A DNA stretch of 64,000 nucleotides from Agrobacterium sp. RAC06 (GTDB taxonomy: Bacteria; Pseudomonadota; Alphaproteobacteria; Rhizobiales; Rhizobiaceae). How positions within the stretch are numbered: position 1 is the stretch's first letter; each line of letters begins with the position of its first letter. The translations under genes were made by a program, and so were the position numbers. The DNA lies in assembly GCF_001713475.1 (NCBI RefSeq), contig NZ_CP016499.1, forward strand, positions 620,001-684,000, read 5' to 3'. Shown here one piece after another: positions 11,271 through 34,160 of the stretch. A model generated the notes under the pieces. The model searched no databases, had not been told where the DNA came from, and saw only the letters and a program-made list of their open reading frames with translations.

Positions 11271-11286
11271 CAGAGAGCGTCTCTAC

Positions 11287-11400: not shown

Positions 11401-11433
11401 ACCTCTGCGTCTCTAAATATAGGTCTGAAAAAA

Positions 11434-11471
11434 ATGAACACTGTTCAAAAAATAACTTGAACAGTGTTCAT
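11434..11471. promoter_or_regulatory. Tandem palindromic operator over the integrase-operon promoter
   Basis: Two 13-bp palindromes, TGAACACTGTTCA (11435-11447) and TGAACAGTGTTCA (11458-11470), lie 23 bp centre to centre and together form a perfect 15-bp inverted repeat with an 8-bp spacer. A plausible promoter overlaps the second site: TTGAAC at 11457-11462, 17 bp, then TATATG at 11480-11485. It is 70-80 bp before the first recombinase. A repressor that keeps the element silent is the obvious inference. It is not the alphaproteobacterial LexA pattern. Confidence 0.6.
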
Positions 11472-11553
11472 AAGAAATATATATGTTGTCTATTGCATTG
11501 ATTTGATTCGTAGGTGATGGTCCTGCTATTCTGAATAGCCGGGATGTCATTAC

Positions 11554-14338: not shown

Positions 14339-14349
14339 GGAGTGCTGGC

Positions 14350-16464: not shown

Positions 16465-16467
16465 TCG

Positions 16468-16878
16468 GTGGCCAAGGCGCGCCTCACGAGGGATGAAATC
16501 GATCGGATAGTCGAGCTTCTGACATCCTGGCGCGGAAAGCTGAGCTGGGAGCTGTTGCTGAAACGTGTAGAGGCGATTCTGCGCCGCCCATTCACGCGGC
16601 AGGGGTTGGCGAAGCAGGAAAACATCCAGACCGCATACCAGCAGGCGAAGAACCGGATTCGGCTGGTCAAGCCGACATCCTCCAAGTCGCCTGAGATTGA
16701 ACTCATGCAAAGCACCATCGACAGTCTGCGAGCGAAGATCGCCGTTATGGAGGCGGAGCGAGGTCGCTACGATGAGAAGTTCGCCACCTGGCTGTATAAT
16801 GCGCGGAGCCGCGGAATCTCAGAGCTTGATCTGAACAGACATCTGCCGGAAGTGGACCGGGACCGGAGCACGAAGTAG
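16468..16878 (+). CDS. Small coiled-coil accessory protein of the recombinase operon
   Basis: 136 residues from a GTG start three bases after the preceding stop. N-terminal helices (TRDEIDRIVELLTSW) with a possible winged-helix or HTH (FTRQGLAKQENIQTAYQ), then a heptad-like stretch (EIELMQSTIDSLRAKIAVMEAER) likely to form a coiled coil. No catalytic motif. Position suggests an accessory factor for the recombinases, like TnpC of Tn554 in role, though I see no proof of homology. Confidence 0.75.
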   Translation: MAKARLTRDEIDRIVELLTSWRGKLSWELLLKRVEAILRRPFTRQGLAKQENIQTAYQQAKNRIRLVKPTSSKSPEIELMQSTIDSLRAKIAVMEAERGRYDEKFATWLYNARSRGISELDLNRHLPEVDRDRSTK

Positions 16879-16880
16879 CG

Positions 16881-17267
16881 ATGAGCGTCAATTCCTTCCA
16901 GCAGATAAGCGAGGAAAACTTCCTCCGGCTTCAGGCCTACATCGAGAAAATGCGTGCTGCTGGCCTGAAACTCCCTAGCCGGGGCGGCAAGGTCAACAAG
17001 ACGGCTGTTGCTACCGCCTGTGGCTTCAATCGAGAGACGTTCACCCAGAACAAGCGCTTCGAGCAGCGGCTGGATGATGCCGTCGCCATGCTGGGTCTGG
17101 AAGGTCCGGTCACACCCGAGCCACCGCGCCGGGACAGAGCCGACAAAGCGCGTATCACCATGCTTGAACAGCAGCTCGCAGCGCTGAGGGGCGAGAACTA
17201 TGAACTGCGGCGAAGGCTCGCAAGATACGAGCATGCGACGCTAACGGGTAGGCGGGTGATCGCATGA
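16881..17267 (+). CDS. Small HTH/coiled-coil accessory protein
   Basis: 128 residues. The N-terminal 70 residues look like a DNA-binding helical domain (SRGGKVNKTAVATACGFNRETF is a credible helix-turn-helix). After a Pro-rich linker comes a leucine heptad segment (ITMLEQQLAALRGENYELRRRL) predicting a coiled coil. The layout recalls TnpC-type transposition accessory proteins. Overlaps the next gene by 4 bases, so translation of both is likely coupled. Confidence 0.75.
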   Translation: MSVNSFQQISEENFLRLQAYIEKMRAAGLKLPSRGGKVNKTAVATACGFNRETFTQNKRFEQRLDDAVAMLGLEGPVTPEPPRRDRADKARITMLEQQLAALRGENYELRRRLARYEHATLTGRRVIA

Positions 17268-19150: not shown

Positions 19151-19402
19151 CGACGCAAGTCAGGAAAGCAGAATTTGAGCCGGTACACATTTCATCACAT
19201 GATCTGGCGCGGACATCGTGAACTAACACGTTGCCACACTTAAAGTTTCGCCTTCTCACCTGACCCGAGGCACGACTTGAGGCGCGCGAAGCCATGCGTA
19301 GCGCAGCGCGCCGTCTTGGATAGCAATTACAGGTCGACAGTCGGAATGGTTGCCAGAAGCGTACATTGCCGCAATTGATAGCCCTAGGCGCCAAACGAAT
19401 TG

Positions 19403-19666
19403 TCAACCCTTGGGCTTTTCGATGGATGCAGTTTCCGAATTATCGAAGACACCCCATCCGTTTCCACCTTTAGGCTGAACGAACAGGATTCCTCTTTGCT
19501 CATAGTAGCGCTGTAGCAGCACATAGCCATTCGGCCAGTCGCGCCGGCCTGTCTCAAGTCGCTGTATTGTACTTCTCGATAGGCCTGCAGCGTCCGCCAC
19601 CTCGGCCTGTTTCATACCGAGTAGTTCTCTGGCGGCTCTTAAGGTTCTGGGTGGGGCTATCATCAT
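19403..19666 (-). CDS. XRE-family HTH regulator (small)
   Basis: About 87 residues from the first of two adjacent ATGs (19666 or 19663). An N-terminal Cro/CI-type helix-turn-helix is clear: LRAARELLGMKQAEVADAAG followed by LSRSTIQRLE. The tail (GILFVQPKGGNGWGVF) is like that of many small rhizobial XRE proteins. It is divergent from the gene at 19835, with two perfect palindromes between them that are its likely operators. Start not certain, since no strong Shine-Dalgarno is seen. Confidence 0.8.
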   Translation of the reverse strand: MMIAPPRTLRAARELLGMKQAEVADAAGLSRSTIQRLETGRRDWPNGYVLLQRYYEQRGILFVQPKGGNGWGVFDNSETASIEKPKG

Positions 19667-19751
19667 CAAATACCATTGCCTGTGCGACATCAATCACCGC
19701 CACTCCAAGGACTCAAGGGAGAAATGTCCCAACACGAAATTCACAAAATTG

Positions 19752-19790
19752 GTGGACGCCTTAGGCGTCCACTGGACGCCTAAGGCGTCC
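19752..19790. promoter_or_regulatory. Tandem perfect palindromes (operator pair)
   Basis: GGACGCCTTAGGCGTCC (19754-19770) and GGACGCCTAAGGCGTCC (19774-19790) are both perfect 17-bp palindromes with an odd central base. The first extends to 21 bp. Centres are 20 bp apart, close to two helical turns, so bound dimers would sit on one face. They lie between the divergent HTH gene and 19835, the expected place for an autoregulated operator. Confidence 0.7.
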
Positions 19791-19834
19791 TGCGCTACGA
19801 CCCTTATAAAGGGCAATAGCGAAGGATTGAGCAT

Positions 19835-20137
19835 ATGACATTCGTCTTCGATGATCCGAGAATCATGCGGCGTGTGCTCCATGATCTGGAGGACCTGCAA
19901 GCGGGAACGCTGGACACTGCGGAAATTCTGGCTAAGGCGCCGCTTCTGGAAGACCATAGGCTGGTCCTCGGCTGGTGCCATGCGATGAAAGGAATCGTCA
20001 CAGGCCACCCATTGCTCCCAGACGGAAACGAGGTCGTTACCAGCCAACTAATCTACATGAACCCTGATATCGGTCTCGCCCGGACCCTCAGCCGCTGGTA
20101 CCGCCTTGGTGCGCCGCGACCAAAGCGGGGGCACTGA
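19835..20137 (+). CDS. Small conserved rhizobial-type hypothetical protein
   Basis: 100 residues, cytosolic, no signal peptide. The C-terminal block (GHPLLPDGNEVVTSQLIY and TLSRWYRLG) is one I recall from a small-protein family common in rhizobial accessory DNA (possibly the one called DUF6634; from memory, not checked). Preceded by AAGGA at a usable distance and by the tandem palindromes. Ends one base before the preferred start of the FtsH-like gene, so the two are very likely one operon. Function unknown. Confidence 0.7.
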   Translation: MTFVFDDPRIMRRVLHDLEDLQAGTLDTAEILAKAPLLEDHRLVLGWCHAMKGIVTGHPLLPDGNEVVTSQLIYMNPDIGLARTLSRWYRLGAPRPKRGH

Positions 20138-20138
20138 C

Positions 20139-22016
20139 ATGCAGCGCGATCAGCTTCGTGAACGCTTCCGAGATCTGAAGAAGGATCCGAGTGGACTACT
20201 CGCGTACTTCGCACTTCGGCGCATCATTAAAAAGGATGGTGTCAACTTTCGTCCAGCCGATGGATTTATCATCGCAACTGTCCCGCCCGACTTTCGCCCG
20301 CTCTCATATAAGAAGGCGTGGCACGTGCTCTTGAATGTCGATGGAGACGAATGGGGACTGCATCGCGAAGCCGTGCGACTGGCCAACACAACCAACCGGA
20401 AGAGAACCATTGAACACGAGCCTTCGATTTTTGAACTGCGAGGTCTGCGTATCCTTTTGGCAACCCACATAAACGAGGTCGCCAACGAAGTGCGTTTCGC
20501 CGCAGAGCGGATCTTATCTTTAAGCCCGCCGTCCGCGGATGATGTCCACGCTACCCGACGCATCCTTGGCTTACCGAGATTAAGTAACGAGCAGGTGAGT
20601 GTCCTTGTAGGCAAGCCGGAGACCACAATGCTTGCTGGGGTGATGAAGCCGCAATGGTGCGCTGATGATACACGAGCGCTGCTTGAGCTTGAGCACTTGG
20701 ACGAAGAAGGGCCGAGTCTATTCGATTTGCCAGGCTTCGAAGAGCAAAAGGTTTGGGCCCAGGGATTGGTCAAAGACATCGGTCTTTGGCGACAAGGGAA
20801 GTTGGGTTGGAAGGATATCGGGCAGAGTGCGCTCGTATCCGGTCCGCCGGGTGTGGGAAAGACGTATCTCGCATCCGCCCTTTCCACGGCGCTTGGCTTC
20901 CGCTTGGTCCAGACCACGGTCGGTGTGTGGCAAACGGGAGGTTACCTCAACGACATGCTTGCAGCGATGAGACGCAGTTTCGACGAGGCCAAGGCAACTG
21001 GTGGAGCAATCTTGTTCATCGACGAATTCGATGGCATCGGATCGCGCCCGAGCCGACCGACGGGGCGCCCCAACGAGACGTACTGGCAAATAGTCATCAA
21101 TGAGTTCCTCAGCCTGATGAATGCCCCAGGAGAGGGCGTGATTGTCATCGGTGCCACGAATTATCCGGAATGGATCGATCCCGCTATCATGCGGGCCGGC
21201 CGCATCGAGAAACACTTCAAGTTGGGTCTGCCAGACGCTACGACTCGGGCGGAAATCTTGCGCTACTATACTGGCGGGGCTCTACTGTTCGAATCCTTGA
21301 CCGAGCTTGCCGACGATCTCGAAGGGAAGTCTGCGGCGGCACTTGAGGAACTCGTTCGATCGGCCCGTCGGCTAGCAAGGAATGAGGAGCGGGAACTCCA
21401 GTTGAGCGACTTGCGCGCTGTGATGCCGGAGAGGAAGAGCTACGCTCCCGAAGAGCAGTTCAGGCTGGGCGTCCACGAAGCGGGCCACGCCTTAATCGCA
21501 CTAACGCTTAATTGCGCGCGCTCCGCGACGATCGAGATAAAGGATAGTTTCGACATTTCACCGGGTTCATATCTGCGGGGCCGGACCTCGTATGATCTGT
21601 TCGATGATAACCTGCCAACCGAAACCGTTCTTCTAAATCGAATTGCGATGTCCCTCGCTGGAATGGCTGCCGAGGCGGCCGTCTTCGGAGATCGATCCCT
21701 GGGTTCCGGAGGTCTAGTCGGTAGCGACGTCGAACATGCGACAGCGATCGCTCGACGACTGGTTGGATCGTATGGTTTGGGCGAGACGCCATTCTTCTTC
21801 GCCACGCCAGAGGAGCTGGATGAAGAACGAATGCCTCCCGCCCTTGAGGCTGAGGCGATGGAGATCTTGCGCAAACAGTACGAACGCGTGCTTGGCATCC
21901 TCTCCCGTGAGAAGGACCAGCTTATCGCCCTTGCTTCCGAGGCCGTGGCACATGGGAAAGTCATGATCGAAAGAGATGCAGGACTGGTTAGCGCAAATTC
22001 AGCGGCGGTCGACTAG
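20139..22016 (+). CDS. Soluble FtsH-like AAA+ ATPase with zinc-metalloprotease motif
   Basis: 625 residues from the ATG at 20139 (an in-frame start at 20106 would overlap the upstream gene). AAA+ core: Walker A GPPGVGKT at residues 235-242, Walker B ILFIDEFDG with Asp295 and Glu296. A protease domain follows: HEAGH at residue 446 (the M41 HExxH motif) and GSDVEHATAIARRLV, aligning with the FtsH region that supplies the third zinc ligand. Unlike FtsH it has no N-terminal membrane helices; the first 200 residues are hydrophilic. Likely an ATP-dependent cytosolic protease. Downstream of an HTH gene and a small protein, which could be regulator or substrate adaptor. Confidence 0.85.
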   Translation: MQRDQLRERFRDLKKDPSGLLAYFALRRIIKKDGVNFRPADGFIIATVPPDFRPLSYKKAWHVLLNVDGDEWGLHREAVRLANTTNRKRTIEHEPSIFELRGLRILLATHINEVANEVRFAAERILSLSPPSADDVHATRRILGLPRLSNEQVSVLVGKPETTMLAGVMKPQWCADDTRALLELEHLDEEGPSLFDLPGFEEQKVWAQGLVKDIGLWRQGKLGWKDIGQSALVSGPPGVGKTYLASALSTALGFRLVQTTVGVWQTGGYLNDMLAAMRRSFDEAKATGGAILFIDEFDGIGSRPSRPTGRPNETYWQIVINEFLSLMNAPGEGVIVIGATNYPEWIDPAIMRAGRIEKHFKLGLPDATTRAEILRYYTGGALLFESLTELADDLEGKSAAALEELVRSARRLARNEERELQLSDLRAVMPERKSYAPEEQFRLGVHEAGHALIALTLNCARSATIEIKDSFDISPGSYLRGRTSYDLFDDNLPTETVLLNRIAMSLAGMAAEAAVFGDRSLGSGGLVGSDVEHATAIARRLVGSYGLGETPFFFATPEELDEERMPPALEAEAMEILRKQYERVLGILSREKDQLIALASEAVAHGKVMIERDAGLVSANSAAVD

Positions 22017-22193
22017 GGTCGAGTACAAGAAGACCGTCGCATATCGGCATTTGGGGGCGTTCTGGTAATATCCCTCAATCCATAGGTTTGATGGCAATTC
22101 GATGACAGCTTCGTCAAAACCCCTCTAGTTCTATGGGAGATTAGTCTTAGTAATTTATGGTAAAGTCTACATGCGGCGAGAGTGGGGGCTGTC

Positions 22194-22352
22194 ATGAAAC
22201 ATGACGAGTTGATCGCTGACATGCTGCAAGCTGCTTTGAAACTTGCGAAGGAAAGCAGGTACGAATTCGTATGCTATCTGATCGAAATGGCCCTGCTTCA
22301 TCTCCGCAAGGATGGACAGCAGAAGAGCGGGTGCAAGCTATCAGGCGGCTAG
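22194..22352 (+). CDS. Small hypothetical protein (52 aa)
   Basis: ATG at 22194 preceded by GGGGG-rich sequence. The product MKHDELIADMLQAALKLAKE continues into YEFVCYLIEMALLHLRK, an amphipathic helical protein. Its YLIEMA segment resembles YLINMA in the overlapping next ORF, which suggests related small helical proteins encoded side by side in different frames. No function can be named. Confidence 0.5.
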   Translation: MKHDELIADMLQAALKLAKESRYEFVCYLIEMALLHLRKDGQQKSGCKLSGG

Positions 22353-22492
22353 ACGAAGTTGCTCAGCGCTTGCAGAGCCTAATGGAGGTGGCCGATGATA
22401 ACGGCCACACTCTCCTTGCATATCTTATCAACATGGCCGAGGTCGAAGCTCGCTACGTTGCTGACGAACATCGCAAGCATCTCAAAAACTAG
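22271..22492 (+). CDS. Small helical hypothetical protein (73 aa)
   Basis: Overlaps the end of the 52-residue ORF in another frame. The body (AEERVQAIRRLDEVAQRLQS and LLAYLINMAEVEARYVADEH) has strong helical, charged-heptad character and ordinary residue use, so I think it is coded. The N-terminal 15 residues are less convincing and the true start may lie further in (a GTG near 22330). Ends just before the convergent SRAP gene. Function unknown. Confidence 0.55.
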   Translation: MLSDRNGPASSPQGWTAEERVQAIRRLDEVAQRLQSLMEVADDNGHTLLAYLINMAEVEARYVADEHRKHLKN

Positions 22493-23127
22493 CCAGCAAG
22501 AGGAAGCAGGATCATGTCTGCTGCCGGAAGCGGTCGTTGCAATTTGAGTGCGTCGTCCCACGGTGCTGTCATCCAGGTCTCGCGCTCTTCTTCTGTAGTG
22601 AGAATGACTGGCATCGCCTTCGGGTGAATGGGGGCGACAACTTCGTTCGGTTCACACGTCAAGAAACCGAACAGCTCGTGGGTGCCTGGCCGCGGCGTTT
22701 TCTGTGAACCGCGGACACCATTCCATGTCGTCCAGATGCCGGCAAAGAAGGTCAGTGGCTTGTCCTCGTTGATCGCGAACCAGCGCTTTGTCTTCCTGGG
22801 CTTCGTGTCTTCCCATTCGCAAAACGTCGTCCAAGGGACAAGGCAGCGGTGCTCGACACTTCGCCAAGGCTGCCAATGTCTGGATTCAATGTTCCGGATA
22901 TTGGTGACACCCGTGTCCGGGTTCCCTTTGGTCACGAAACTTGGTGACGGCATTCCCCACGTCAAAGCGGCGAGTTCGCGGCCGCCGGGCGTATTGCGCA
23001 CGACGGGTGCTGGACGGTCCGGATAGACATCGATCGATGGCTCGAGATTGCCGAGGATATCGTTCGCAACCCTGCCCAGCGCACGCATGGCCTCTTGGTT
23101 GGTACTAATGTTGTAGAGATTGCACAT
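22489..23127 (-). CDS. SOS response-associated peptidase family protein (SRAP, YedK/HMCES-like)
   Basis: 212 residues starting MCNLYNIS. In the SRAP family Cys2 becomes the N-terminal residue after Met removal and crosslinks to abasic sites in single-stranded DNA, shielding them. Other family blocks are present: LTWGMPSP, RCLVPWTTFCEWE (catalytic Glu region) and HPKAMPVIL (the His block). The start at 23127 is set by the need for Cys2 and by a perfect GGAGG five bases before the ATG. The frame stays open upstream to 23427 without a stop, so a longer fused product cannot be excluded. A LexA box lies about 110 bp beyond that extension. Confidence 0.9.
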   Translation of the reverse strand: MCNLYNISTNQEAMRALGRVANDILGNLEPSIDVYPDRPAPVVRNTPGGRELAALTWGMPSPSFVTKGNPDTGVTNIRNIESRHWQPWRSVEHRCLVPWTTFCEWEDTKPRKTKRWFAINEDKPLTFFAGIWTTWNGVRGSQKTPRPGTHELFGFLTCEPNEVVAPIHPKAMPVILTTEEERETWMTAPWDDALKLQRPLPAADMILLPLAG

Positions 23128-23427
23128 GCCGTCCTCCGCTGGCCTCCACCATCCCAGGTGATCGATTTCGGATAGTTCGATCATTTCGCCCCGATGACAA
23201 GCACGGAAGCGAAGAGCGATGTCGCGGTCGGCGAAGCTGTGCAGCAGCCAGGTCGCATCCGATTCATAGGAAATGAGCCGCGTGTGTCTCACGCCCAATG
23301 CAGTAGCTTCGTAGATGATCGGCAGTCGTTCCTGAACGCTGCGGCTTTCAGGCCAGGGAATGATGACGTGGTGGGGAAAACGTGCGTTCAGAAGGGTTTT
23401 TGTCCAACGCTGTTTGCGGCTTGCCAT
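23128..23427 (-). CDS. In-frame 100-residue ORF upstream of SRAP (separate or fused)
   Basis: MASRKQRWTKTLLNARFPHH through GWWRPAEDG reads directly into the SRAP Met with no stop codon. Composition is that of a real protein (ALRFRACHRGEMIEL), with no family I can name. Either SRAP has a translated N-terminal domain, which would bury its catalytic Cys2, or the ribosome makes both a long form from 23427 and a short active form from 23127. The end coordinate given is the junction, not a stop codon. Confidence 0.55.
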
Positions 23428-23537
23428 GGCTACTCTCGTTCGCGCCCCCGCCGAGGGGCAAAGGATTTAATTTTCCCACCGCCCAAGGAGCCGCTCCCCT
23501 TCAACGATGAATAGTTGACACTACATCAGGAGAGTGA

Positions 23538-23552
23538 GAACATAAAGAGAAC
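23538..23552. promoter_or_regulatory. LexA-type SOS box in the island
   Basis: GAACATAAAGAGAAC matches GAAC-N7-GAAC exactly, the same pattern as the uvrA/ssb box in this window. It is 15 bp before the small gene at 23567 and 110 bp before the SRAP transcription unit reading the other way, so it could control either or both. Confidence 0.7.
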
Positions 23553-23566
23553 ATATGAGGTGAAAC

Positions 23567-23749
23567 ATGACCACTGCAAGCACGAATGACGTCGTTGCGA
23601 ATGCCCTTGCCGAGGTAGCCAAAGCGCGAGCGTGGAGGGAGAGAAATGAAGCCCAGAGGCATCGCACTTTTGGCGGCATGGCTACTCGCCAGTCGGTCTA
23701 TGTGCTCGCCCGGAAGAAGCCGGAGGAGAAAGAGTCATGCAAGCAGTGA
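23567..23749 (+). CDS. Small hypothetical protein (60 aa)
   Basis: ATG at 23567 is preceded by GAGGTGAA at good spacing. The product (NDVVANALAEVAKARAWRER) is charged and helical and ends lysine-rich. It lies directly downstream of a LexA box, so DNA-damage induction is likely if the box is used. Overlaps the next small ORF by 13 bases. No function recognised. Confidence 0.6.
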   Translation: MTTASTNDVVANALAEVAKARAWRERNEAQRHRTFGGMATRQSVYVLARKKPEEKESCKQ

Positions 23750-23943
23750 CCGCATGTGTCGAAGAGCAGCCTGACGAGGTCGAAGAAGTTCTCTCGCTGT
23801 TCGGCGGAGATGCGCGAAAAGCGCTGCGCGCGGTCCTGAGAGATTGCCATCATTTGCATGAGCAACTGAGGCTGACATCCGGTGCCATGAGTGTCGGCTT
23901 CACAAGAGGTTGGCTGCCTAAAGATCGAATAATCGATGGCTGA
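23737..23943 (+). CDS. Small hypothetical protein (68 aa)
   Basis: Overlaps the previous gene in another frame, suggesting coupled translation. The core (ALRAVLRDCHHLHEQL and GAMSVGFTRGW) resembles small proteins I recall from rhizobial plasmids and islands, but no function is attached to them. Cytosolic, helical, no signal peptide. Confidence 0.6.
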   Translation: MQAVTACVEEQPDEVEEVLSLFGGDARKALRAVLRDCHHLHEQLRLTSGAMSVGFTRGWLPKDRIIDG

Positions 23944-24045
23944 CCTCAAAGGGCTCGCGGCGTCCATTGCTCGCTAGTGCTCTAGGTTTCACTGCGGAGA
24001 GGTCAAATTCGTCTCCCACGCACGGACTAATTTAGAATAGCATTT

Positions 24046-24849
24046 TTACGGAACTACGAGGTATTGTGGCGATGAAGCGATGCTGGTGTCGTCTCCGTAA
24101 TTCACCAGATACGGCTTGATCCAAATTTTTTTGCGCTCCTGCCAGCCAGGACCCACAGCCTGATTCTTATAGTGACCAGCGCGGATATGTGGTTTGACGT
24201 GACCTCGGCCTTCCTCATACGCGTGATCCTTGCCCTGCCTATCAGTGCTGTAGCCGATATGTACTTTTACATAGTCTTTCGTGATCGGCGGCTTGCCCTT
24301 TTTGATGCGTGCCGCGTCTAGCTTAGGGCTGATCTGAGCGGGTTCTCGTGTGACGATTCCACGTACGTGGAGCGTCATTGCAAGACAGAGGGATATGGCT
24401 GCGGAGGGAGCATAGCTATCAATAAATTGTCTTGTAATTGGCGATGGAACCCAGCCTTGGTATGGTTGGACTATTGCGCTTCCATCTGATGCAAACGAAG
24501 CCGGAAAATAGTCCCCAAAGATCATGCTGCGCTTGGCGCGTGGGATGTGAAATGCTGGCCAGATCCGGTAACTATTCGGTCCAACGGCATCGACAAGCCA
24601 GAAGATTAGCTCATCTGTATCGTGCCCCCACTCTACAAGCATGGTCTCATATGGAAGTTCCGTGCGCCCCGCCTCAATTGCAACGGCCACGGCATGGTCG
24701 TAGTCTGCCGCATGCTCTTTTAGCCAATCCATAATGTCCCGCGAGAAGACAAATTTGGGTGCTCCCTGCATGCGCCTATATAGATCGGCTGCTCCCGGAA
24801 AGTTGGGATGCTCAACGAGGCGTAAGTCGTGAAAACGGCTGACGGACAA
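24046..24849 (-). CDS. Hypothetical protein with phage/plasmid-type C-terminal motif
   Basis: 267 residues, not recognised as an enzyme. The C-terminal region (LDAARIKKGKPPI, then GHVKPHIRAGHYKNQ and ERKKIWIKPYLVN) has the basic HxRxGHxR...KIWIxPxxVN pattern seen in uncharacterised proteins of phages and plasmids. The N-terminal part is ordinary globular sequence with several Trp. It stands alone on the minus strand between the small-protein cluster and the trypsin-like gene. Confidence 0.65.
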   Translation of the reverse strand: MSVSRFHDLRLVEHPNFPGAADLYRRMQGAPKFVFSRDIMDWLKEHAADYDHAVAVAIEAGRTELPYETMLVEWGHDTDELIFWLVDAVGPNSYRIWPAFHIPRAKRSMIFGDYFPASFASDGSAIVQPYQGWVPSPITRQFIDSYAPSAAISLCLAMTLHVRGIVTREPAQISPKLDAARIKKGKPPITKDYVKVHIGYSTDRQGKDHAYEEGRGHVKPHIRAGHYKNQAVGPGWQERKKIWIKPYLVNYGDDTSIASSPQYLVVP

Positions 24850-25012
24850 ACGCCTCTCCTACTTCGGCATGCTGATTGGTCAGTGGCGAGACCTAACCGC
24901 TTTGTGGATTTGAGTTCAAGGCCTGCTGTGATCTCTGGGCGGAGAGAGCCGCCCGAAATTACGCATGCGCGAGCTAAACCGATTTTCGCAAGGGGCCGCG
25001 AGTGAGTGACTG

Positions 25013-25052
25013 ATGACTAAATGATAGACGGCGGAGTCCGACATTCAGTCAT
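25013..25052. repeat. Imperfect inverted repeat upstream of the trypsin-like gene
   Basis: atgactaaatg (25013-25023) pairs with cattcagtcat (25042-25052) at 10 of 11 positions around an 18-base loop. It could be an operator or transcript hairpin for the gene at 25117. The rest of the 24850-25104 gap shows nothing else. Confidence 0.35.
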
Positions 25053-25116
25053 CTGGCGCGGCAGTCCGAGTTTGGGCGAATGCGGTCACTAAAGGTGTGC
25101 TATATTGTCGGCCACG

Positions 25117-26025
25117 ATGTTCGAGTTCCGCCAACGAGGGCTTACCATCTCAAGTGCCTCTGACCTCCATGTTGTGTGGAAATGCGATTCGAGTGTGCAG
25201 CAAAGGACAATGCTTGCAGCTATGCGGCTGTCATCGAAGCTGTTTGTCAGGACCGAGAACTGCATGAAGTACCCAATTTGCAACGCACTTAGCGCCAATG
25301 CCGCAAAGCACTGTGCAGCTTTGGTAGTGACGGAGAACTTCGAGGTCGGCACAAGGACATTGTCCAAGCTCGCTCAACCCAAAGAGACGCTCCGGAACGG
25401 GACACTCACATTTGTCTCTAGTAAGGGGCGTACGTTCGGCATCACCTGTAAGCATGTGGTGCAGCACTATCGCGACCTTACTGCTGCATCTGACAAAAGC
25501 GCGTACTCCATGCGCACTATGCTGAACGGTTTCTACGTCGTCATGGATCGCTTCAAAACCCCACAGCCACAGTACGGCGATGGTCCGCTGGACATTGCCG
25601 TAAGGGAAGTCATGCCCGAATTCATCGCGAAGCTCGGTAAAGAGCCTTTTGATCTCGACGCTTGCCCAGACCTGCCTTCGCAGATACGGCATGGTTACGC
25701 AGTAGGGTTTCCCGAAACCCTTAAGCGCCGCGTTCAGTCTGACCCACTTGGCTATAAGGTTTCTATGCCACAGCTCGAAGTCCTCGCGGAACTTCGGCAT
25801 ACGCCAACTAGGCGATTTCAGCTCGTCAGCGAAATCGGTGAGCCTCCAAAACATTCGGACTTTAGCGGAATGAGTGGTGGGCCGATCTTCTGGAGCACAG
25901 AAACCGAGTATGGAATGCTTGGCATCACATATGAAGGAGACGTTGGAAGTGACGGCAGAAGTATTCACATCTTTGGTGAGTTCGCTGCACGCGACACCAT
26001 TCTGGACTGGATCGATCAGTTGTGA
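25117..26025 (+). CDS. Trypsin-like serine protease domain protein
   Basis: About 302 residues from the ATG at 25117; an in-frame TTG at 25105 or ATG at 25264 are alternatives. A chymotrypsin-fold triad can be read in the right order and spacing: His113 (GITCKHVV), Asp159 (GPLDIAV) and Ser253 (GMSGGPIFW). No signal peptide or PDZ domain is seen, so a cytosolic protease is likely. Similar stand-alone trypsin-like proteins occur in anti-phage and mobile-element contexts. It lies alone upstream of the methylase operon, on the same strand but 248 bp away. Confidence 0.75.
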   Translation: MFEFRQRGLTISSASDLHVVWKCDSSVQQRTMLAAMRLSSKLFVRTENCMKYPICNALSANAAKHCAALVVTENFEVGTRTLSKLAQPKETLRNGTLTFVSSKGRTFGITCKHVVQHYRDLTAASDKSAYSMRTMLNGFYVVMDRFKTPQPQYGDGPLDIAVREVMPEFIAKLGKEPFDLDACPDLPSQIRHGYAVGFPETLKRRVQSDPLGYKVSMPQLEVLAELRHTPTRRFQLVSEIGEPPKHSDFSGMSGGPIFWSTETEYGMLGITYEGDVGSDGRSIHIFGEFAARDTILDWIDQL

Positions 26026-26273
26026 GTGGTTAGATGTCGGCCCACCGCGAGATGGCTAAGCTTCATCGTCGGGGAGCGGCGCCAAAATTCTAATACGCGT
26101 TGTGACGATTCATAGCTGCACCCCAAGTGAGAAGATCGTTATCCGCGACTTTGGTTGCGGTAGTCACATTCATTTATTATTAGTTGACAGGTTGAAATTA
26201 TAAACGTGAGACTGGCGCGTAACCGAGCAAGTCCTGCGCCGAAATGCACATGCTTTGAAAGTCATAGAGCACC

Positions 26274-27416
26274 ATGTTTCTCGAAAGGCTGGTCGGTGAG
26301 CGGCCGATTGCGATCCCGATTTCCCATTCTGAAAGTGACGCTGCGATTCGACCAGCAGCACCGATCTTCGTGTACGATTTCTTCTCGGGTTGTGGTGGTG
26401 CGAGCGAGGGTCTCAGGGCGGCAGGGATGAAACCTGTGCTCGGGCTTGATGTCGATCACGAGGCCATGGCGACTTTCGCTCACAATTTCGTGGGCGCCAC
26501 CGCGTTAATTAAGAATATCTGTCACCTCACCACGTCGGAGATTGAGTATCTATTTGAAAAGGAGCGGGTTTCACCTGTGCTATTCAGCGCCTGTGCTCCA
26601 TGCCAGCCGTTCTCTCGCCAGAACCGCCAGCGCAAGGAGAAGGACAGCAGAGTATCGCTTCTGAAGGAGCTGGCGCGATTTGTGCTCCGGTTCCGTCCCG
26701 AGCTGATCTTCGTCGAGAATGTTCCAGGTCTACAGACCTTTTCGGAAGCCGAAGACGGGCCCCTGCAGGAGTTGCTCGAACTCCTGGACGCCAACGGCTA
26801 TAAGCATTCTGTACGCATCGTAGAGGCAAGGGAGTACGGAGTTCCCCAGAACCGCCGGAGGCTCGTGCTTGTTGCAAGCCTCTTCGGCGAGTTCGAATTC
26901 CCAGCGCCGACCCACGGCAGTGGTGAAGGGCTTCATGCTGTTAAGACCGTTCGCGACGCGATAGGACATTTTCCTCCGATTGCGGCTGGTACTTTGGATC
27001 AGAGTATACGAAACCACTATGCTTGCGCGCTTGCGCCCCAAAATCTCGAAAGAATCCGGGCCGTGACGGAAGGCGGGGGGAGGCGTACATGGTCAGAGCA
27101 TCTGAAGCTGGACTGCCACAAAGGCCTCAAGGGCTACACTGATGTATATGGGCGGATGAGCTGGGATCGTCCATCGCCGTCGCTCACGACCCGCTGCATC
27201 AGTCTTTCGAACGGTCGATTCGGCCATCCTGAGCAGGATCGGGCGATCAGTGTTAGGGAAGCCGCCTCGCTACAGTCCTTCCCTGATAGCTTCGAGTTTT
27301 TCGGAAGTCTGAATTCTCAGGCCCGTCAGATCGGGAACGCGGTGCCGCCACGTCTTTCCGAAATCATCGGACGCGCAATGATTTTGCATGTCCGAAAATA
27401 CCTGGGTCAATCCTGA
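26274..27416 (+). CDS. C5-cytosine DNA methyltransferase
   Basis: 380 residues with all main Dcm-type motifs in order: I DFFSGCGGASEG (residues 35-46), IV PCQPFS (109-114, catalytic Cys110), VI ENVPG (148-152), VIII QNRRRLVLV (192-200), and X RQIGNAVPP near the C-terminus. The target-recognition region is short, so specificity cannot be guessed. Its stop overlaps the next start by one base (TGATG), so it is coupled to the dual-GHKL protein. No Vsr or recognisable restriction nuclease sits beside it. Confidence 0.93.
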   Translation: MFLERLVGERPIAIPISHSESDAAIRPAAPIFVYDFFSGCGGASEGLRAAGMKPVLGLDVDHEAMATFAHNFVGATALIKNICHLTTSEIEYLFEKERVSPVLFSACAPCQPFSRQNRQRKEKDSRVSLLKELARFVLRFRPELIFVENVPGLQTFSEAEDGPLQELLELLDANGYKHSVRIVEAREYGVPQNRRRLVLVASLFGEFEFPAPTHGSGEGLHAVKTVRDAIGHFPPIAAGTLDQSIRNHYACALAPQNLERIRAVTEGGGRRTWSEHLKLDCHKGLKGYTDVYGRMSWDRPSPSLTTRCISLSNGRFGHPEQDRAISVREAASLQSFPDSFEFFGSLNSQARQIGNAVPPRLSEIIGRAMILHVRKYLGQS

Positions 27417-30403
27417 TGGCGAAATTCGGCATTGGAGCGCGGGCGATTGACCTGCTCGGCCGCCAGCAGGTGGCGGGAACTCCCACCGCGATATCGGAGC
27501 TTTTCAAGAATGCTCATGATGCGTACGCGCGCAATATCGTCGTTGATTTCTACCGCGTTAAAAACCTGCTCGTCTTGCGCGACGACGGTGTCGGAATGTC
27601 CCGCCGCGACTTTGAGACTAGATGGCTGACCGCCGCGACGGATAGCAAGCGGGAGAGCGGATACATGCCGCCGCCGGAAGCCGACCCTGATCAGCCGCTG
27701 CGGCCCGTGATGGGCGAGAAGGGTATTGGCCGGCTTGCCATTGCGGTCCTCGGCAAGCAGGTTCTAGTTCTCACGAGGCAAAAATCCCCCGATGCTTCCA
27801 AGCCCCTGGTGGTGGCTCTGCTCCACTGGGATGTCTTCAGCCTGCCGAATATACAGCTCGGCGATATCGAGATCCCTCTGAGGGAGCTCGAGGGTGGCAC
27901 ATTGCCTGACCGGGTAATAGTATCAGAAATGGTGCAGGAGGCCGTTCGTAACCTCGAGCATCTTTCTAAGGACACAGATCCAAAGCTGGCGGAGCAGATT
28001 ATCGAAGACCTCCGCAGGTTCGACGTAGACCCAGCGTCTCTCGCCTCAGTTATGCTGGAAGGCCCGGATCTGCGCGGCAAGGGTTATGGTACCCACTTCT
28101 ACATCCTTCCAACGAACGAGACGCTGGCTCTCGATGTGGACGAGGTTGCCGAGGATGAGAAAGCGACGCCCATGCAGAAGGCCTTGCTTGGGTTCTCAAA
28201 CACAATGGTGCCCGGCCATACTCCGCCGCCGATGCGCACAGCCTTCCGAGACCACAAGGGAGGAGGTCTGTGGGAGGACATAATCGGCTCGAACCAATTC
28301 TTCACGCCGCAGGATTTTGAGAGTTCGGATCATCAGGTGTCCGGCGCTTTCGACGAGCACGGCCAGTTTTCCGGTTCTATCCGTGTCTTTAACGGCGAAG
28401 TCCGTCCGCTGCGTATCCACTGGCCGAACGGCAAAGGACAGCCGACCAAATGCGGCCCTTTCACGCTCTCGTTCGCTTATGTGCAGGGGACAGCGAGGGA
28501 AACGCTTCTACCCCGCGATCGTTGGAACGAGATGATCGGGAAACTCAATAGGATCGGCGGTCTTTACCTTTACCGCGACAATATCCGGATCCTTCCCTAC
28601 GGTGACTCGGACTACGACTTTCTCGACATAGAACGACGAAGGACTAAGCACGCGGGCTACTACTTTTTTTCTTATCGAAGGATGCTGGGCGTTATCGAGA
28701 CGACTAAGCGCGCCAACGCCAATCTCGTCGAAAAAGCTGGACGGGAAGGGTTCCAGGCAAACGCAGCGTACAAAGAATTTCGGGCCATCCTTGAGAACTT
28801 CTTTATCCAGCTAGCCGCCGAGTTTTTCCGGGAGGGCGGCACTTCGAGCGACGAGTTCTTTGCTCTCAGGGAGGAGAATGCGAAGAATTTTGAGATTCTC
28901 AAGAAACGCGAGCAGCAGATTGCAACCCAGCGTCGTAAGCTCTCCAGGAGCCTTGAGTGGTTCTTCGAGAAGATGGCTGAACGTTCTTTTGAAGACGGTG
29001 TGCACGACGTCGTTGCATCTATCGAAAGCAGGCTGGCCCGTCTTTCCGAGGGAGAAATCGATCCGGGCGAGATACGCCGCATGGAAAGCAGCGCGCTCGC
29101 CGAAATCGCGGCGATTTCTCGAGACTCGCGGATCGTCCGTCCCAGAGCTGTTGGCCTCACCAAGGAGCAGTCGAGGCAATGGGCGAGCTATGAAGCTCAG
29201 CGTAGCCAGCTTGAAAACAGCGTATACCTCCCGGCGATGGACAGAGTTCGATCTGCGTTCGCAGCCGCCAAGGACCGGTTGGGCATGGCTGACCAAGCCC
29301 GACAACTCGCTTACGAGACAATTTCAGAAATCTCGTTAGACAGCCAGCGACAGATGCGGAAGCTGTCATCCGACGTCCGCTCCGATGCGGACGGATTCCA
29401 CGAGCGTGTGGTGCAACTGACCAAAGATAGCATCAGGACGGTGCGAGAGGCGATCGAGGGAAAGCTGATAGCTTTCGAACGAGAGGCGTCCGCGAACATG
29501 ACACCGGAGCAGATTTCGCGGATCCAGAGTTCGATCGAGGCCGAGATAAGGTCAGTAACTGAGCGGCAATCCGAGATCCTCCAGAAGATCGCCTCAGATA
29601 TCGCTTCAGTCGCCTCAGACGGCCCTCGTATGGACGAGCTGCTAACGGCGATGGAAACAGATCTGGAGGATCGCCGCGATCGTGAAGAACTAAGCATGCG
29701 TCTGGCGCAAATGGGACAGGCTATCGGCATCGTCCATCATGAGTTCAGCGCCGCGATTCGAACCGTAAGGCGTAACGTGCGCCGTCTCGAGAGCTGGGCC
29801 GACAGGAACGAGAAGTTCCGAAAGGTCTACGATGACATTACGCAGAGCTACGCACACTTGGACAGTTATCTGTCTCTGTTCGCTCCACTCAGTCGCGGTC
29901 TCGACCAGACGAAACGGGTCATACGTGGATCCGAGGTCACCAGCTATCTAATGGAATTGTTAGGCGATCGCCTGCGCCGCCACAATGTGGAACTCATTGC
30001 GACTTCGGATTTCCAGGGCACAGAGATCGAGGCCTTCGTGTCGACTATATATCCGGCATTCGTAAACCTGGTCGACAACTCGATTTATTGGCTGAATCAC
30101 GGTCAGTATCTCGATACGGGCACTGCGTCGAACCAACGTCCAAAGCGAGTGATACTCGACCGACAAGACAATTCGCTTCTTATTTCAGACAGTGGTCCAG
30201 GTGTTCTTCCGGGCGACGAATATGCAGTTTTCGAGACGGGATTTTCTCGAAAGCCTGGCGGAACCGGTCTTGGCCTGAGCATTACGCATGATGTTCTGAA
30301 TAGGCAGGGCTTTCAACTAACGCTAGATCTCTACGAGAAGGGCGAGGGTGCCACATTCCGAATTAGGATCCCTGACGACGCAATTCTGGAAGACAGTCCA
30401 TGA
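27416..30403 (+). CDS. Dual GHKL ATPase: N-terminal MORC/Hsp90-like plus C-terminal histidine-kinase-like module
   Basis: 995 residues. N-terminal GHKL domain: N-box ELFKNAHDA (residues 29-36, Asn32), G1 DDGVGM (56-61), G2 GEKGIGRLA (100-108), in MORC/Hsp90 style. The middle (about 450-750) is long, charged and helical, probably coiled coil. The C-terminus has an H-box-like GIVHHEFSAAI with His774/His775, then a second GHKL domain: N-box Asn888 (VDNS), G1 DSGPG (925-929), G2 GGTGLGLS (948-955), as in sensor kinases. No membrane segment, so it acts in the cytosol. Overlaps the receiver gene by 4 bases. It may couple DNA or methylation sensing to phosphotransfer. Confidence 0.88.
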   Translation: MAKFGIGARAIDLLGRQQVAGTPTAISELFKNAHDAYARNIVVDFYRVKNLLVLRDDGVGMSRRDFETRWLTAATDSKRESGYMPPPEADPDQPLRPVMGEKGIGRLAIAVLGKQVLVLTRQKSPDASKPLVVALLHWDVFSLPNIQLGDIEIPLRELEGGTLPDRVIVSEMVQEAVRNLEHLSKDTDPKLAEQIIEDLRRFDVDPASLASVMLEGPDLRGKGYGTHFYILPTNETLALDVDEVAEDEKATPMQKALLGFSNTMVPGHTPPPMRTAFRDHKGGGLWEDIIGSNQFFTPQDFESSDHQVSGAFDEHGQFSGSIRVFNGEVRPLRIHWPNGKGQPTKCGPFTLSFAYVQGTARETLLPRDRWNEMIGKLNRIGGLYLYRDNIRILPYGDSDYDFLDIERRRTKHAGYYFFSYRRMLGVIETTKRANANLVEKAGREGFQANAAYKEFRAILENFFIQLAAEFFREGGTSSDEFFALREENAKNFEILKKREQQIATQRRKLSRSLEWFFEKMAERSFEDGVHDVVASIESRLARLSEGEIDPGEIRRMESSALAEIAAISRDSRIVRPRAVGLTKEQSRQWASYEAQRSQLENSVYLPAMDRVRSAFAAAKDRLGMADQARQLAYETISEISLDSQRQMRKLSSDVRSDADGFHERVVQLTKDSIRTVREAIEGKLIAFEREASANMTPEQISRIQSSIEAEIRSVTERQSEILQKIASDIASVASDGPRMDELLTAMETDLEDRRDREELSMRLAQMGQAIGIVHHEFSAAIRTVRRNVRRLESWADRNEKFRKVYDDITQSYAHLDSYLSLFAPLSRGLDQTKRVIRGSEVTSYLMELLGDRLRRHNVELIATSDFQGTEIEAFVSTIYPAFVNLVDNSIYWLNHGQYLDTGTASNQRPKRVILDRQDNSLLISDSGPGVLPGDEYAVFETGFSRKPGGTGLGLSITHDVLNRQGFQLTLDLYEKGEGATFRIRIPDDAILEDSP

Positions 30404-32085
30404 CCTTTGAGGAGCAGTGTAGTTCTGCCGCAGCGAATTTCCTTCAGACCGCCGTCCTCGTCGACGACCAAGCGGAGTTTGGGATGCCAGCAGACATGGT
30501 GTCAGACCCAGACGGAGGGGCATTCGAGGATCCAGACGAACTATCTGCGGTGAGCGTGACGGGCGCGACTCCGGCAGCGCAGCCGATTAGGGAGCGTCTG
30601 GACGCCGGAGCGATAACACGCGGCTTTGCTGAGAAGGGGTTGATCTGCAGCGTCCTGAAGCCTCAGTCGGCAGCTTCCATATCCATGGAAGTGCTCCGGC
30701 TGGCGCCGAAAAGTGACATCATCGTTCTCGACTGGCAGATGGGGAGCGTGGATAACGGTGACATTGCCCTTGGGATCATCTTTAAAGTTCTTGAAATGGA
30801 TCGTCGGGCTGGCGGTCGATTAAGGCTGTTTGCCATCTACACGGGCGTGCGGGATCTCAGCACGGTTTCGGTCCGCATTGCGGACGAGCTTCCATCGCTC
30901 AAGGCTTCGTCGAATCCTTTCGAGTTCTACAACGAACCAGCCACTGCCAAGGTTGTCGTTCTCGGCAAGGGAATTGCAACGGATCACGAGGCTGGGCAGG
31001 AGGAGCGTTGCACGGAGGAAGAAGGACTCGCAACGAGGCTAATCACTGAGTTCGCAAAATTCTCTGGTGGCATACTCAGGAACGCTACGCTAGCTTCTAT
31101 GGGGCATCTGCGCAGCAACACTCATCGCCTACTTGCGCGTCTGAATGGCGATCTCGACGGCCCAGTCGTTACCCAGTTCGCACTCCTGAATAATCCGGCT
31201 GATGCGCAGCAGTATATCGCCGACTTGATTCTTCAGGAAATAGAGGCTCAGGTCCCACTCGAGGAGATCGTTGCAAGATATGCAGGTCCAGACAGCATCA
31301 AGAAGCGCATTACTCAACTCTTCGCAGAGGGAGGGAAGTCGAGGATACCCCTGGATGCCGAAGGAAAGACAATGTACGAGTTGCCGGAAGCTTCCGCATT
31401 GTCGCTGGTCGACGGACCGCTTGAGACGCTTAAGTCGCATATAGGCGACTTCGCGAATACACTTGGTAAAATGCCAAAGGAAATTTCCGGACAGTTTGGA
31501 CCAGATTCTATTCCTCAAAGGTTGTATGGGGTTCTAGGCGATGATTTCGCGGAGGGCGTCCGCAAACATGAGGATTTCGCGATTGCTTCGGCGATCCGGC
31601 TGACTAACCTGGAGGCGCAGAGCTTTAGAGATCGCAAACTTCCGACGATACGGCTTGGATCGATCATCCATGACGCGGACGGTTACCATATTTGTCTCAC
31701 TCCTGTTTGCGACAGTGTTCGCCTCCCGAGAGAGAAGGCTCAGTTCCTGTTTGGTCGTCTCGTGGAGGACGAGAGAAAATTCAACGTCATTGTGGACGAT
31801 GACGGCGTCCGCCGGCGGCTTCTCATCGATCGGAAGAACGTGTTCATTAAGACGCTTGAACTGATCCCAGCAGCAGATCGCACGATCCGCGTCGAGAGGA
31901 GGTTGTTCGACTATCTCGTTCCTGTTTTTTCTCCAGATGACGGAAAATTGTTCGTTCGGTGGGTTGCCGAAATGAAGCCCATGCAGGCGCAGAGGGTAGT
32001 TAACTCAGTAACCTCGAACCTATCGCGCATCGGGCTCGATGAATTTGAGTGGCTGCGACAGCTTGGCGTGAACTGGACCGGTTGA
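30400..32085 (+). CDS. Receiver-domain protein partner of the dual GHKL ATPase
   Basis: 561 residues. The N-terminal 190 residues form a receiver: acidic pair Asp22-Asp23 (AVLVDDQ), phospho-acceptor Asp111 (DIIVLDWQMG), Thr148 (FAIYTG) and Lys190 (VVVLGKG). All five signature positions are kept, but an insert of about 45 residues follows the first strand. The remaining 370 residues match no effector domain I know. ATGA overlap with the preceding gene implies 1:1 production, and the obvious inference is phosphotransfer from its His774/775. The C-terminal part is the likely output, possibly nuclease or DNA-binding. Confidence 0.82.
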   Translation: MTFEEQCSSAAANFLQTAVLVDDQAEFGMPADMVSDPDGGAFEDPDELSAVSVTGATPAAQPIRERLDAGAITRGFAEKGLICSVLKPQSAASISMEVLRLAPKSDIIVLDWQMGSVDNGDIALGIIFKVLEMDRRAGGRLRLFAIYTGVRDLSTVSVRIADELPSLKASSNPFEFYNEPATAKVVVLGKGIATDHEAGQEERCTEEEGLATRLITEFAKFSGGILRNATLASMGHLRSNTHRLLARLNGDLDGPVVTQFALLNNPADAQQYIADLILQEIEAQVPLEEIVARYAGPDSIKKRITQLFAEGGKSRIPLDAEGKTMYELPEASALSLVDGPLETLKSHIGDFANTLGKMPKEISGQFGPDSIPQRLYGVLGDDFAEGVRKHEDFAIASAIRLTNLEAQSFRDRKLPTIRLGSIIHDADGYHICLTPVCDSVRLPREKAQFLFGRLVEDERKFNVIVDDDGVRRRLLIDRKNVFIKTLELIPAADRTIRVERRLFDYLVPVFSPDDGKLFVRWVAEMKPMQAQRVVNSVTSNLSRIGLDEFEWLRQLGVNWTG

Positions 32086-32393
32086 ACATAGAACGCCGAA
32101 ATAGACGTCTAACCAGGCGCGAGAAGACGATTGCTGCATACCTACTGCATGCGACGCGTCGCCCTGGAGCGTCAGGGGCTGTGCTCTTAGATGAACCAGG
32201 CTTCTGGTGGCCGCGGCTATCTGCTCACCAAGAAATTCCGCCCTATAGGCTTTAGCGAACTTGTTCTCCGATTCCGACACGAGCGATACTACACTGGTGA
32301 AACTTGATAGTGCTCGCTTTTGGGGTCTTGTTGCTTTTTCAAGCCAGCGGCTACAACGGGCGTGTGCCGTTAAGTGTGAGGGCGCTACGCCGA
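32086..32393. other. Intergenic gap between convergent receiver and DUF3800 genes
   Basis: 308 bp between the convergent stops. I see no convincing gene, no RNA gene and no clear terminator hairpin. Short open frames here run across both neighbours' ends and look accidental. Confidence 0.5.
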
Positions 32394-33560
32394 TCAATCG
32401 AGGTTCAGACGGAACTGGCCAGTGTCGAAACCGTTTTCGGCAACTCGGTAGTAGACCTCGATAGGCAGCCCGGTACCTTTCCCTGATGCTGTCATCGCTA
32501 ACTCATACAGAACCGCATAGTTCACGGCCGCGGACCTGTTCCGAAGATCAAGTCTTTCGATGTCTGGAAAAACTGAATCGCGAAGCATGCCGGCATCGAG
32601 AATGGTCGTGATTGATCGCATGTCCTCGTGCAGGCCGTGCTGGAAAGCACTAGCTGCTGTACTCGCTAAAACATCGGCGATTTGCACCGAAGCGTGCGAT
32701 TTAGAATTAACAAACTTGATGGGCCCGACAAGTTCCCAGCCCGGTTCGTCAACGCCAACAATCTCCCTAATGCGGCGTATGATTTGCTCCTGACTTTGCC
32801 CACCCAGATCTCCTGCTATCGCCCGGAGGGGTTTGCTGTCGTCACACTGAACTGAAAGGGGAACTCTCTGCTTGCCCCAATGATTGAGGTGGCTCCAGAG
32901 CGAGGAAGCAGAAAGATCCAGCATCCACCGACCTCCGTCCGCCATGCGATCCACGACAGAGGCATTGTCCGCCGCAATGACGTCGCGAAAGCCGGTAGCG
33001 AAAATCTGGAGCAAAGAAAAAGGTCGCAGCGAGGCCGCTTCACTGGTGTCCTTGAACTCAAAAAGTAGCGGCGCAACCGCAGGATTCTTCGTGCGCATGT
33101 ACGCCTGAAACTGCGCAAGGAAGCCCTCTGCGTGCTCGTCCATACCTATTGCGTAAGTATAACAGAACATGGCGACAAAGCGGTGAAAGTCTTTCCGGTA
33201 GAAAATTCGCGGGTCGTTCTGGAAAACAGGTTCGAATATATACTCAAATACCCATCCGCAGAGAGCGAGCAGCTTGTCAGAAGCGGTAATTGCAAACCGC
33301 CCCTCCAGCTTTTGAACAAGGGTACATATCAATTTCCGACCGCGGGGGGATGAGAGGAGCTTGGCGGCCTTCAGCTCTGGCATTTGGACCGGGTGGAGTC
33401 GTCGCGCGGCAGCCATGAGATCTGCAGCTTCGGCGTCACCTATATTGATTGAAGCGAACGCGAAGAACGGCTGTTCCTTAGCTAGCAGATCAGGCCCCGT
33501 ATGCCCCGCTTCGTCGCATGCAATTTCCAAAAAGTCCCCCGTCGATCGGCGCGATGCCAT
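32394..33560 (-). CDS. DUF3800 domain protein
   Basis: 388 residues. The N-terminal IACDEAGHTG (Asp16-Glu17) matches the DUF3800 D-E-S/A-G start. A later SHASVQIADVLAST block matches the conserved Gln-Ala-Asp segment near the family's C-terminal core. The fold is thought to be RNase H-like, so a nuclease function is plausible but not shown. It is longer than many family members. Convergent with the methylase-ATPase-receiver operon and last gene before the right end. It may be a separate defence gene or supply the nuclease missing from that operon. Confidence 0.78.
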   Translation of the reverse strand: MASRRSTGDFLEIACDEAGHTGPDLLAKEQPFFAFASINIGDAEAADLMAAARRLHPVQMPELKAAKLLSSPRGRKLICTLVQKLEGRFAITASDKLLALCGWVFEYIFEPVFQNDPRIFYRKDFHRFVAMFCYTYAIGMDEHAEGFLAQFQAYMRTKNPAVAPLLFEFKDTSEAASLRPFSLLQIFATGFRDVIAADNASVVDRMADGGRWMLDLSASSLWSHLNHWGKQRVPLSVQCDDSKPLRAIAGDLGGQSQEQIIRRIREIVGVDEPGWELVGPIKFVNSKSHASVQIADVLASTAASAFQHGLHEDMRSITTILDAGMLRDSVFPDIERLDLRNRSAAVNYAVLYELAMTASGKGTGLPIEVYYRVAENGFDTGQFRLNLD

Positions 33561-33733
33561 TACTTTTTATCACCAGAAATACGACAGGCATTGTTCTGTC
33601 AGGAAAACGGGAGAGGCGAGTGGAGCGGATTTTTACAATGCTCGGAGGCACCGTCAAGATCGAGGCTTTTTTGGAGGTGGGGAACTGCGGGGAGATCATC
33701 TCAACCGACACAAGCCACGTTGTGCAGAGGTGA
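33554..33733 (+). CDS. Possible small protein divergent from the DUF3800 gene
   Basis: 59 residues from ATG 33554 (MPLLFITRNTTGIVLSGKRE), with ordinary amino-acid balance. It overlaps the DUF3800 start by a few bases on the other strand and lacks a good Shine-Dalgarno. An in-frame upstream start at 33518 exists. It may be chance; included because no other gene covers this stretch. Confidence 0.25.
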   Translation: MPLLFITRNTTGIVLSGKRERRVERIFTMLGGTVKIEAFLEVGNCGEIISTDTSHVVQR

Positions 33734-34160
33734 AGATTTGCGAACGCAACTGCGAGCAAGCTTCTCTTCGCCAGTTCTGAAGCTTCCCGTGCGGCCTAAC
33801 AGGCATGAATGCAACCATCGAACACGACTGGCGGTCTGTCGGTCAGGAGCCGCTCCGGCGGTCAGACACATGCACGTCAACGCAGGCCGGACTTCCGCAT
33901 CCAGAACACCATGGGTCCGCTCTCCCATCGAGTTGGGGGGGGCGGGTCGGGTAGGGGCCATGAGTAACCTTGAGCGTCCAGCGGCGGCCGTTTTGTAAAC
34001 TAATTGTTCGTTTTTTCGCGGATTTCGACCATTTGTTTACAGACTAACGATCGAGCGCGACTGTTTCTCGTTTATCATATTGAAATCGCCCTTGTTCTCT
34101 CTCTCAGTTTACAATTCTGCTCCCTCTTACCGTTCTGAGAACAGGCCGGATCAGATGAAA
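33734..34160. other. Non-coding right margin of the island
   Basis: About 430 bp with no credible gene. It holds the right-end motif cluster described separately. Several open frames cross it on the plus strand but have Arg/Ser-rich shadow composition. Confidence 0.55.
33991..34114. repeat. Right-end recombinase-type motif cluster
   Basis: Motif copies: tgtaaact at 33994-34001 (within the 11-base ttttgtaaact also found at 11287-11297), tgtttaca at 34034-34041, and agtttaca at 34106-34113. The outermost copy is part of cagtttacaa (34105-34114), the exact reverse complement of ttgtaaactg at 11289-11298. Number and spread of copies mirror the left end. Confidence 0.65.

Follow-up and report, generated by a model that had tools for sequence, protein, structure and literature searches.

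The 64,000-nucleotide stretch of Agrobacterium sp. RAC06 analysed here (contig NZ_CP016499.1, positions 620,001 to 684,000; hereafter the window) carries, as an earlier note made from its sequence alone had proposed, an operon of three genes. These encode, in order, a C5-cytosine DNA methyltransferase, a protein in which a MORC-type GHKL ATPase is fused to a histidine-kinase module, and a receiver protein (Table 1), the kinase and receiver genes sharing 4 bases. The methylase has P109-C110-Q111, E148-N149-V150 and Q192/R194/R196, all unchanged across 32 aligned methylases of such modules. A Pfam scan of eight genes in and around the operon revealed no restriction-nuclease domain, and the cognate restriction-enzyme gene that would stand beside the methylase in a type II restriction-modification (R-M) system was not found among these eight, the GHKL stretch of the kinase protein matching restriction-enzyme models weakly.

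Table 1. Coordinates in the window of the operon, its protein domains and the island that carries it.
Feature	Coordinates	Strand	Basis
C5-cytosine DNA methyltransferase, 380 residues	26274..27416	+	PF00145, E=5.5e-54
MORC-type GHKL ATPase fused to HEF_HK histidine-kinase module, 995 residues	27416..30403	+	HATPase_c_3, HEF_HK, HATPase_c; residue conservation
N-terminal MORC-type GHKL ATPase, residues 1-125	27416..27790	+	PF13589 at residues 24-124
HEF_HK DHp domain, residues 765-829; H775 candidate phospho-acceptor	29708..29902	+	PF19191, E=1e-24
Histidine-kinase catalytic ATPase, residues 879-987 (N884, N888, D925, G949, G951, G953)	30050..30376	+	PF02518, E=1.9e-13
Receiver-effector protein (effector part predicted), 561 residues	30400..32085	+	PF19192, E=3.3e-31
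Response_reg_2 receiver domain, residues 14-190; D111 candidate phospho-acceptor	30439..30969	+	
Helical region, residues 205-400	31012..31599	+	no Pfam match
Predicted MazF/PemK-like fold, residues 416-543; invariant C432, C437, R441	31645..32028	+	
Inserted island carrying the operon	11269..34129		junction in relative L097; tyrosine-recombinase matches near left end

The kinase protein begins as a paraMORC does, with an N-terminal GHKL domain of intact motifs followed by an S5-like domain, judging from the PF13589 match and from motif residues compared across 147 distinct kinases (the 34 of the loci, window included, pooled with 120 from a protein search and identical sequences merged; the split kinases of loci L009 and L015 excluded). 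All 144 ungapped rows have E28, D35, D56, G58 and G60, and K102 is present in 145 of 145; G100 has a single exception among ungapped rows, and K440, in an S5-like region assigned from motif and not from fold, is found in all 147. The NCBIfam model for the BbrUII/HgiDII restriction enzymes also matches residues 9-124 (E=3.6e-17), scoring 62 bits where its cut-off is 550. In the histidine-kinase module H775, N884, N888, G951 and G953 are each kept in 147 of 147 kinases and G949 in 146, whereas at residue 925, where the G1-box aspartate usually contacts adenine, 70 kinases including the window protein have Asp and 77 have Asn, with at least four changes on a quick tree of 40 rows. The mean share of the commonest residue is 0.78 in the MORC GHKL region, the most conserved part of the protein, versus 0.57 in the kinase ATPase. 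In locus L015 (7009-10001) two open reading frames that overlap by 4 bases encode the MORC ATPase and the kinase separately, through a natural split or through a frameshift. An apparent natural fusion of methylase and kinase (P0122, 1365 residues) was treated by eye as a frameshift artefact because its methylase part departs around the PC motif and at its end.

The HEF_HK and Response_reg_2 domains of the pair score 87.3 and 109.2 bits, against cut-offs of 24.1 and 27. The receiver fold itself is predicted by modelling, and D111 and K190 are kept in 36 of 36 loci; D23 is replaced by Asn in nine of these, every one with an Asn925 kinase. Covariation between kinase residue 925 and receiver residue 23 was considered and set aside: all 10 rows with Asn23 have Asn925, yet residue 23 changes once on the tree, so that they amount to a single event. 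Towards the C-terminus, for which the model drew on 50 sequences, residues 416-543 have the predicted fold of the MazF/PemK superfamily, a likeness drawn against MazF, PemK and Kid entries of the PDB, and the helical region that precedes them is touched by just one match in the structure-match list. Foldseek by itself returned no match at E<=0.001 for either receiver model, and Pfam searches of 31 C-terminal regions gave no PemK match and no family in more than one member. A sequence-level relation of the receiver C-terminus to PemK was sought and not found, the hhalign probability against nine PemK proteins being 0.1 with a shallow profile, and the wider receiver alignment, used as a homologue query, brought in no proteins beyond the earlier search set. 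MazF catalysis uses Arg and Thr; an Arg occurs in the loop between strands 1 and 2 in 15 of 31 rows, at no fixed position, and D438, present in 29 of the 31, lies beside the invariant C432, C437 and R441.

Scanning genome contigs with the receiver alignment yielded 35 other loci. A relative of the kinase adjoins the receiver in every one, L009 and L015 having it in two pieces; 31 of the loci include a C5 methylase, and in the remaining four (L021, L032, L035, L039) the block runs to a contig end. In most loci the methylase is upstream on the same strand; the exceptions are L013, L016-L019 and L028 (downstream, opposite strand), L025, L033 and L034 (downstream, same strand) and L036, where it is set apart. 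Five carriers, the window among them, emerged from a family-led scan of 385 genomes of the class. All have the kinase, and a methylase is seen in the window, L094 and L096 and, as a decayed copy, in L095, L093 beginning at a contig edge. Of 7993 candidates scored in the protein search, 4208 reached E<=1e-10, and all 120 of the matches listed have HEF_HK. These results, from a comparison of the kind that the earlier note had proposed, bear out its dual GHKL architecture, its intact receiver and its link between C5 methylases and paraMORC-type ATPases. For the effector the note had pointed either to the receiver C-terminus or to a nearby DUF3800 protein; the structure prediction it had called for gives substance to the former, and the latter drops out, since the DUF3800 gene, like a trypsin-like gene, a 267-residue gene and an AAA/M41 gene also considered as parts of the system, has relatives in none of the 35 other loci. 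Of the neighbouring genes, scans covered 56 of 61 on the downstream side, 48 of 65 on the upstream side and one more.

The methylase, kinase and receiver are inherited as a unit. Across 29 loci, a set that omits nine loci for close relatedness, the two with split kinases and those lacking a methylase, distances correlate at r=0.897 for kinase and receiver, 0.602 for kinase and methylase and 0.528 for receiver and methylase, and none of 5000 permutations reached the observed value for any pair, which shows shared history, not function. All three genes also occur together on seven viral contigs, which can contain host flanks; two of these are nearly identical and the receiver frame is shorter in one. 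Phage records held no receiver relative, and two plasmid records held a partial one. A DNA relative is present in 196 of 5426 Escherichia coli genomes, the 15 matches listed covering 17% of the 3.8-kb query at 70.7% identity. In E. coli D8, the one annotated region inspected, cytosine methyltransferase, ATP-binding and response regulator receiver proteins are encoded one after another, flanked by insertion-sequence remnants and a contact-dependent inhibition (CDI) locus, with no restriction nuclease annotated among its 13 features.

The target-recognition stretch of the methylases was compared in 28 of 38 module methylases and in 29 control C5 methylases (L084, a module member, excluded), the controls having more gaps and a mixed composition. 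Among pairs with 45-55% catalytic identity the stretch is 46.5% identical in modules (87 pairs) versus 24.4% in controls (20 pairs); at 35-45% the values are 30.2% (250 pairs) versus 19.0% (177 pairs), and at 25-35% they are 26.4% (16 pairs) versus 16.2% (157 pairs), whereas at 55-70% the gap vanishes, with 49.9% (23 pairs) versus 53.9% (12 pairs). These sequence comparisons hint that the methylases of the family may have few target sequences.

The pairing of HEF_HK and Response_reg_2 with a C5 methylase had already been described (Bellieny-Rabelo 2021, PMC8011034), so that novelty is not supported; the earlier note had itself named prior description as evidence to the contrary. According to the accessible part of that paper, which set out from Pectobacterium genes up-regulated in potato tubers, the two genes are linked in 91.6% of 644 regions, C5 methylases lie upstream, Vsr and HNH genes are neighbours, and R-M domains are over-represented around the pair. 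A group 1 architecture of HATPase_c_3, HEF_HK and HATPase_c, kin to paraMORC ATPases, accounts for 174 of 222 kinases, and a signalling role around R-M systems is proposed there without functional test; the receiver proteins are reported, in the same accessible text, to have no further known domain. The window shares both Pfam domains, the group 1 architecture, the adjacency and the upstream methylase with the published pair and differs in having no adjoining Vsr or HNH gene and in the predicted MazF-like fold of its receiver protein. Among full-text matches to the two domains, the one paper listed besides this survey concerns natural-product clusters and mentions them a single time. Neither a functional study of the block nor any proposal for its effector was among the literature matches listed, subscription papers falling mostly outside their coverage.

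The operon sits on a mobile island. In the same-genus genome G002 (relative L097) window positions 7529-11268 join 34130-35577 with a 7-bp overlap, and because the flanks are contiguous there the operon belongs to a 22.9-kb insertion, flanked by ssb (named by eye) and uvrA on one side and marC on the other. A Phage_integrase match lies in 12039-12833 (E=3.4e-12) and another, below cut-off, in 12833-14335. In 22 of the 24 further genomes of the genus, by reading of gene positions, uvrA and marC lie within 3 kb of each other. They are on different contigs in G001, and the distance of about 15 kb between them in G007 suggests a possible hot spot of insertion. A scan of 200 genomes of relatives found the window and one fragment and nothing else: the fragment, in the same-genus genome G025 (L058 8653-9033, 126 residues), matches the receiver C-terminus only, lies beside an integrase-like gene and is a relic of that C-terminus. 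Other genes of the island include a 636-residue protein with AAA and M41 peptidase domains (20106-22016; FtsH-like, with PADLOC IetA matches), possibly another defence gene, an SRAP (HMCES-like) family gene (22489-23427) and, just upstream of the operon, a 306-residue protein (25105-26025) that matches trypsin weakly and, in PADLOC, LmuA of Lamassu (E=1e-6). The DUF3800 protein (32394-33560, minus strand), which matches PHROG 12991 (E=9.4e-33), lies outside the conserved block.

The explanation that we favour, with somewhat less than even confidence, is that the block forms a mobile, DNA-methylation-linked two-component system with a MazF-fold output. The methylase would mark the host's own DNA, and the 995-residue protein would act as a soluble, dimeric ATPase clamp with a histidine-kinase tail, its MORC module monitoring DNA or methylation state. 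H775 would then donate phosphate to D111 in the receiver protein, and the phosphorylated receiver would free the C-terminal MazF-fold domain, leading to growth arrest or a block on the invader, in a role that would be one of defence or addiction. In favour of this explanation are the inheritance of the block as a unit, the constancy of H775, D111 and K190, the predicted MazF-like C-terminus, the lack of a restriction-nuclease domain in the eight genes scanned and of an annotated one in the E. coli D8 region, the mobility of the island and the joint presence of the three genes on viral contigs. The more specific proposal that makes the receiver protein a phospho-gated MazF-fold effector, switched on by a MORC clamp that reads DNA methylation, with the C432/C437/R441 patch and D438 in place of the MazF active site, is unlikely. 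What weighs against the two-component explanation, and limits confidence in it, is that about half of the kinases compared depart from Asp at the G1 box, for which reason phosphotransfer may not hold in every member of the family. Kinases of the HPK10 type work without this box, so that Asn925 does not prove a dead kinase. The same substitution and its repeated changes on the tree would also suit a MORC ATPase defence in which the MORC clamp and the methylase do the work, the kinase part being structural or decaying and receiver phosphorylation non-essential, as would the stronger conservation of the MORC GHKL part and its match, far under the model cut-off, to the N-terminus of the BbrUII/HgiDII enzymes. 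Drift would not, however, keep H775, N884, N888, G951 and G953 together with D111 and K190, and G949 is nearly as constant; set against these residues and the HPK10 precedent, such a defence is decidedly unlikely.

The apparent absence of a conserved MazF-type catalytic Arg from the receiver protein would fit a pair that only tunes the expression or activity of R-M genes, the MazF-fold domain serving for binding. The authors of the 2021 survey speculate on such a regulatory role, R-M domains being over-represented near the pair in the accessible text (PMC8011034). A local R-M target is not always present, however, because no restriction-nuclease domain was found in the eight genes scanned here and none is annotated in the E. 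coli D8 region; Pfam, moreover, gave no DNA-binding domain for the receiver protein or for any of 31 C-terminal regions, and this alternative is unlikely. Loss of the methylase or of its mark might instead trigger the MazF-like domain and kill cells that lose the island, as a selfish addiction module would, and the mobility of the island, the predicted fold and the presence of a methylase in the same block agree with this; yet the relic in one same-genus genome and the decayed copy elsewhere in the class persist, which indicates that loss is survivable and leaves such a module quite improbable. Upkeep of 5-methylcytosine, with the MORC-kinase acting like MutL, alongside Vsr, on T:G mismatches that arise by deamination at the methylase's own sites, is improbable as well. 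A Vsr gene is present in 19 of the 35 loci (one match weak and short) and on three of six distinct viral contigs, but there is none near the window operon, the sole Vsr of the host lying some 1.7 Mb off, next to a second C5 methylase; Vsr accompanies C5 methylases in general, and a kinase and receiver would be superfluous for repair. The accessible text of Iyer 2008 (PMC2292703) does link MORCs, Vsr and MutL.

If the proposal of a phospho-gated MazF-fold effector is true, the receiver protein would be, to our knowledge, the first fusion of a receiver with MazF, and its partner the first histidine kinase to take as input a MORC ATPase that reads DNA marks. The family is widespread and has been known since 2021, and the MazF-like domain predicted on the receiver offers a concrete and cheap lead to its output; the split between Asp and Asn at residue 925 indicates which members to examine first for phosphotransfer.

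Histidine kinases and receivers have reportedly been tied to phage resistance elsewhere. In Marinomonas such a pair is said to regulate CRISPR-Cas, not an effector of the same operon, and Detocs is said to signal from histidine kinase to receiver so as to drive an effector fused to the receiver, with other domains, a nucleosidase-type effector and neither methylase nor MORC ATPase. The window receiver protein shows only Response_reg_2 by Pfam and no effector of the nucleosidase type. The paraMORC R-M operons, as treated in the accessible part of Iyer 2008 (PMC2292703), have in common with the window family an intact N-terminal GHKL domain followed by an S5-like region, and the company of a C5 methylase and Vsr, whereas several of those families carry nuclease, TIR or other C-termini where the window protein carries a histidine-kinase tail. 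VcSduA, a GHKL-containing Shedu whose phage defence has been tested (PMC12137116), likewise couples a GHKL ATPase to an effector but is a single protein with a PD-(D/E)xK nuclease, a kinase module and receiver going unmentioned in the part of that paper available. The MazF, PemK and Kid toxins resemble the window receiver protein in the predicted fold of residues 416-543; no sequence-level relation to them was found, and the window family, in which the MazF catalytic Arg appears not to be conserved, has the invariant C432, C437 and R441 instead.
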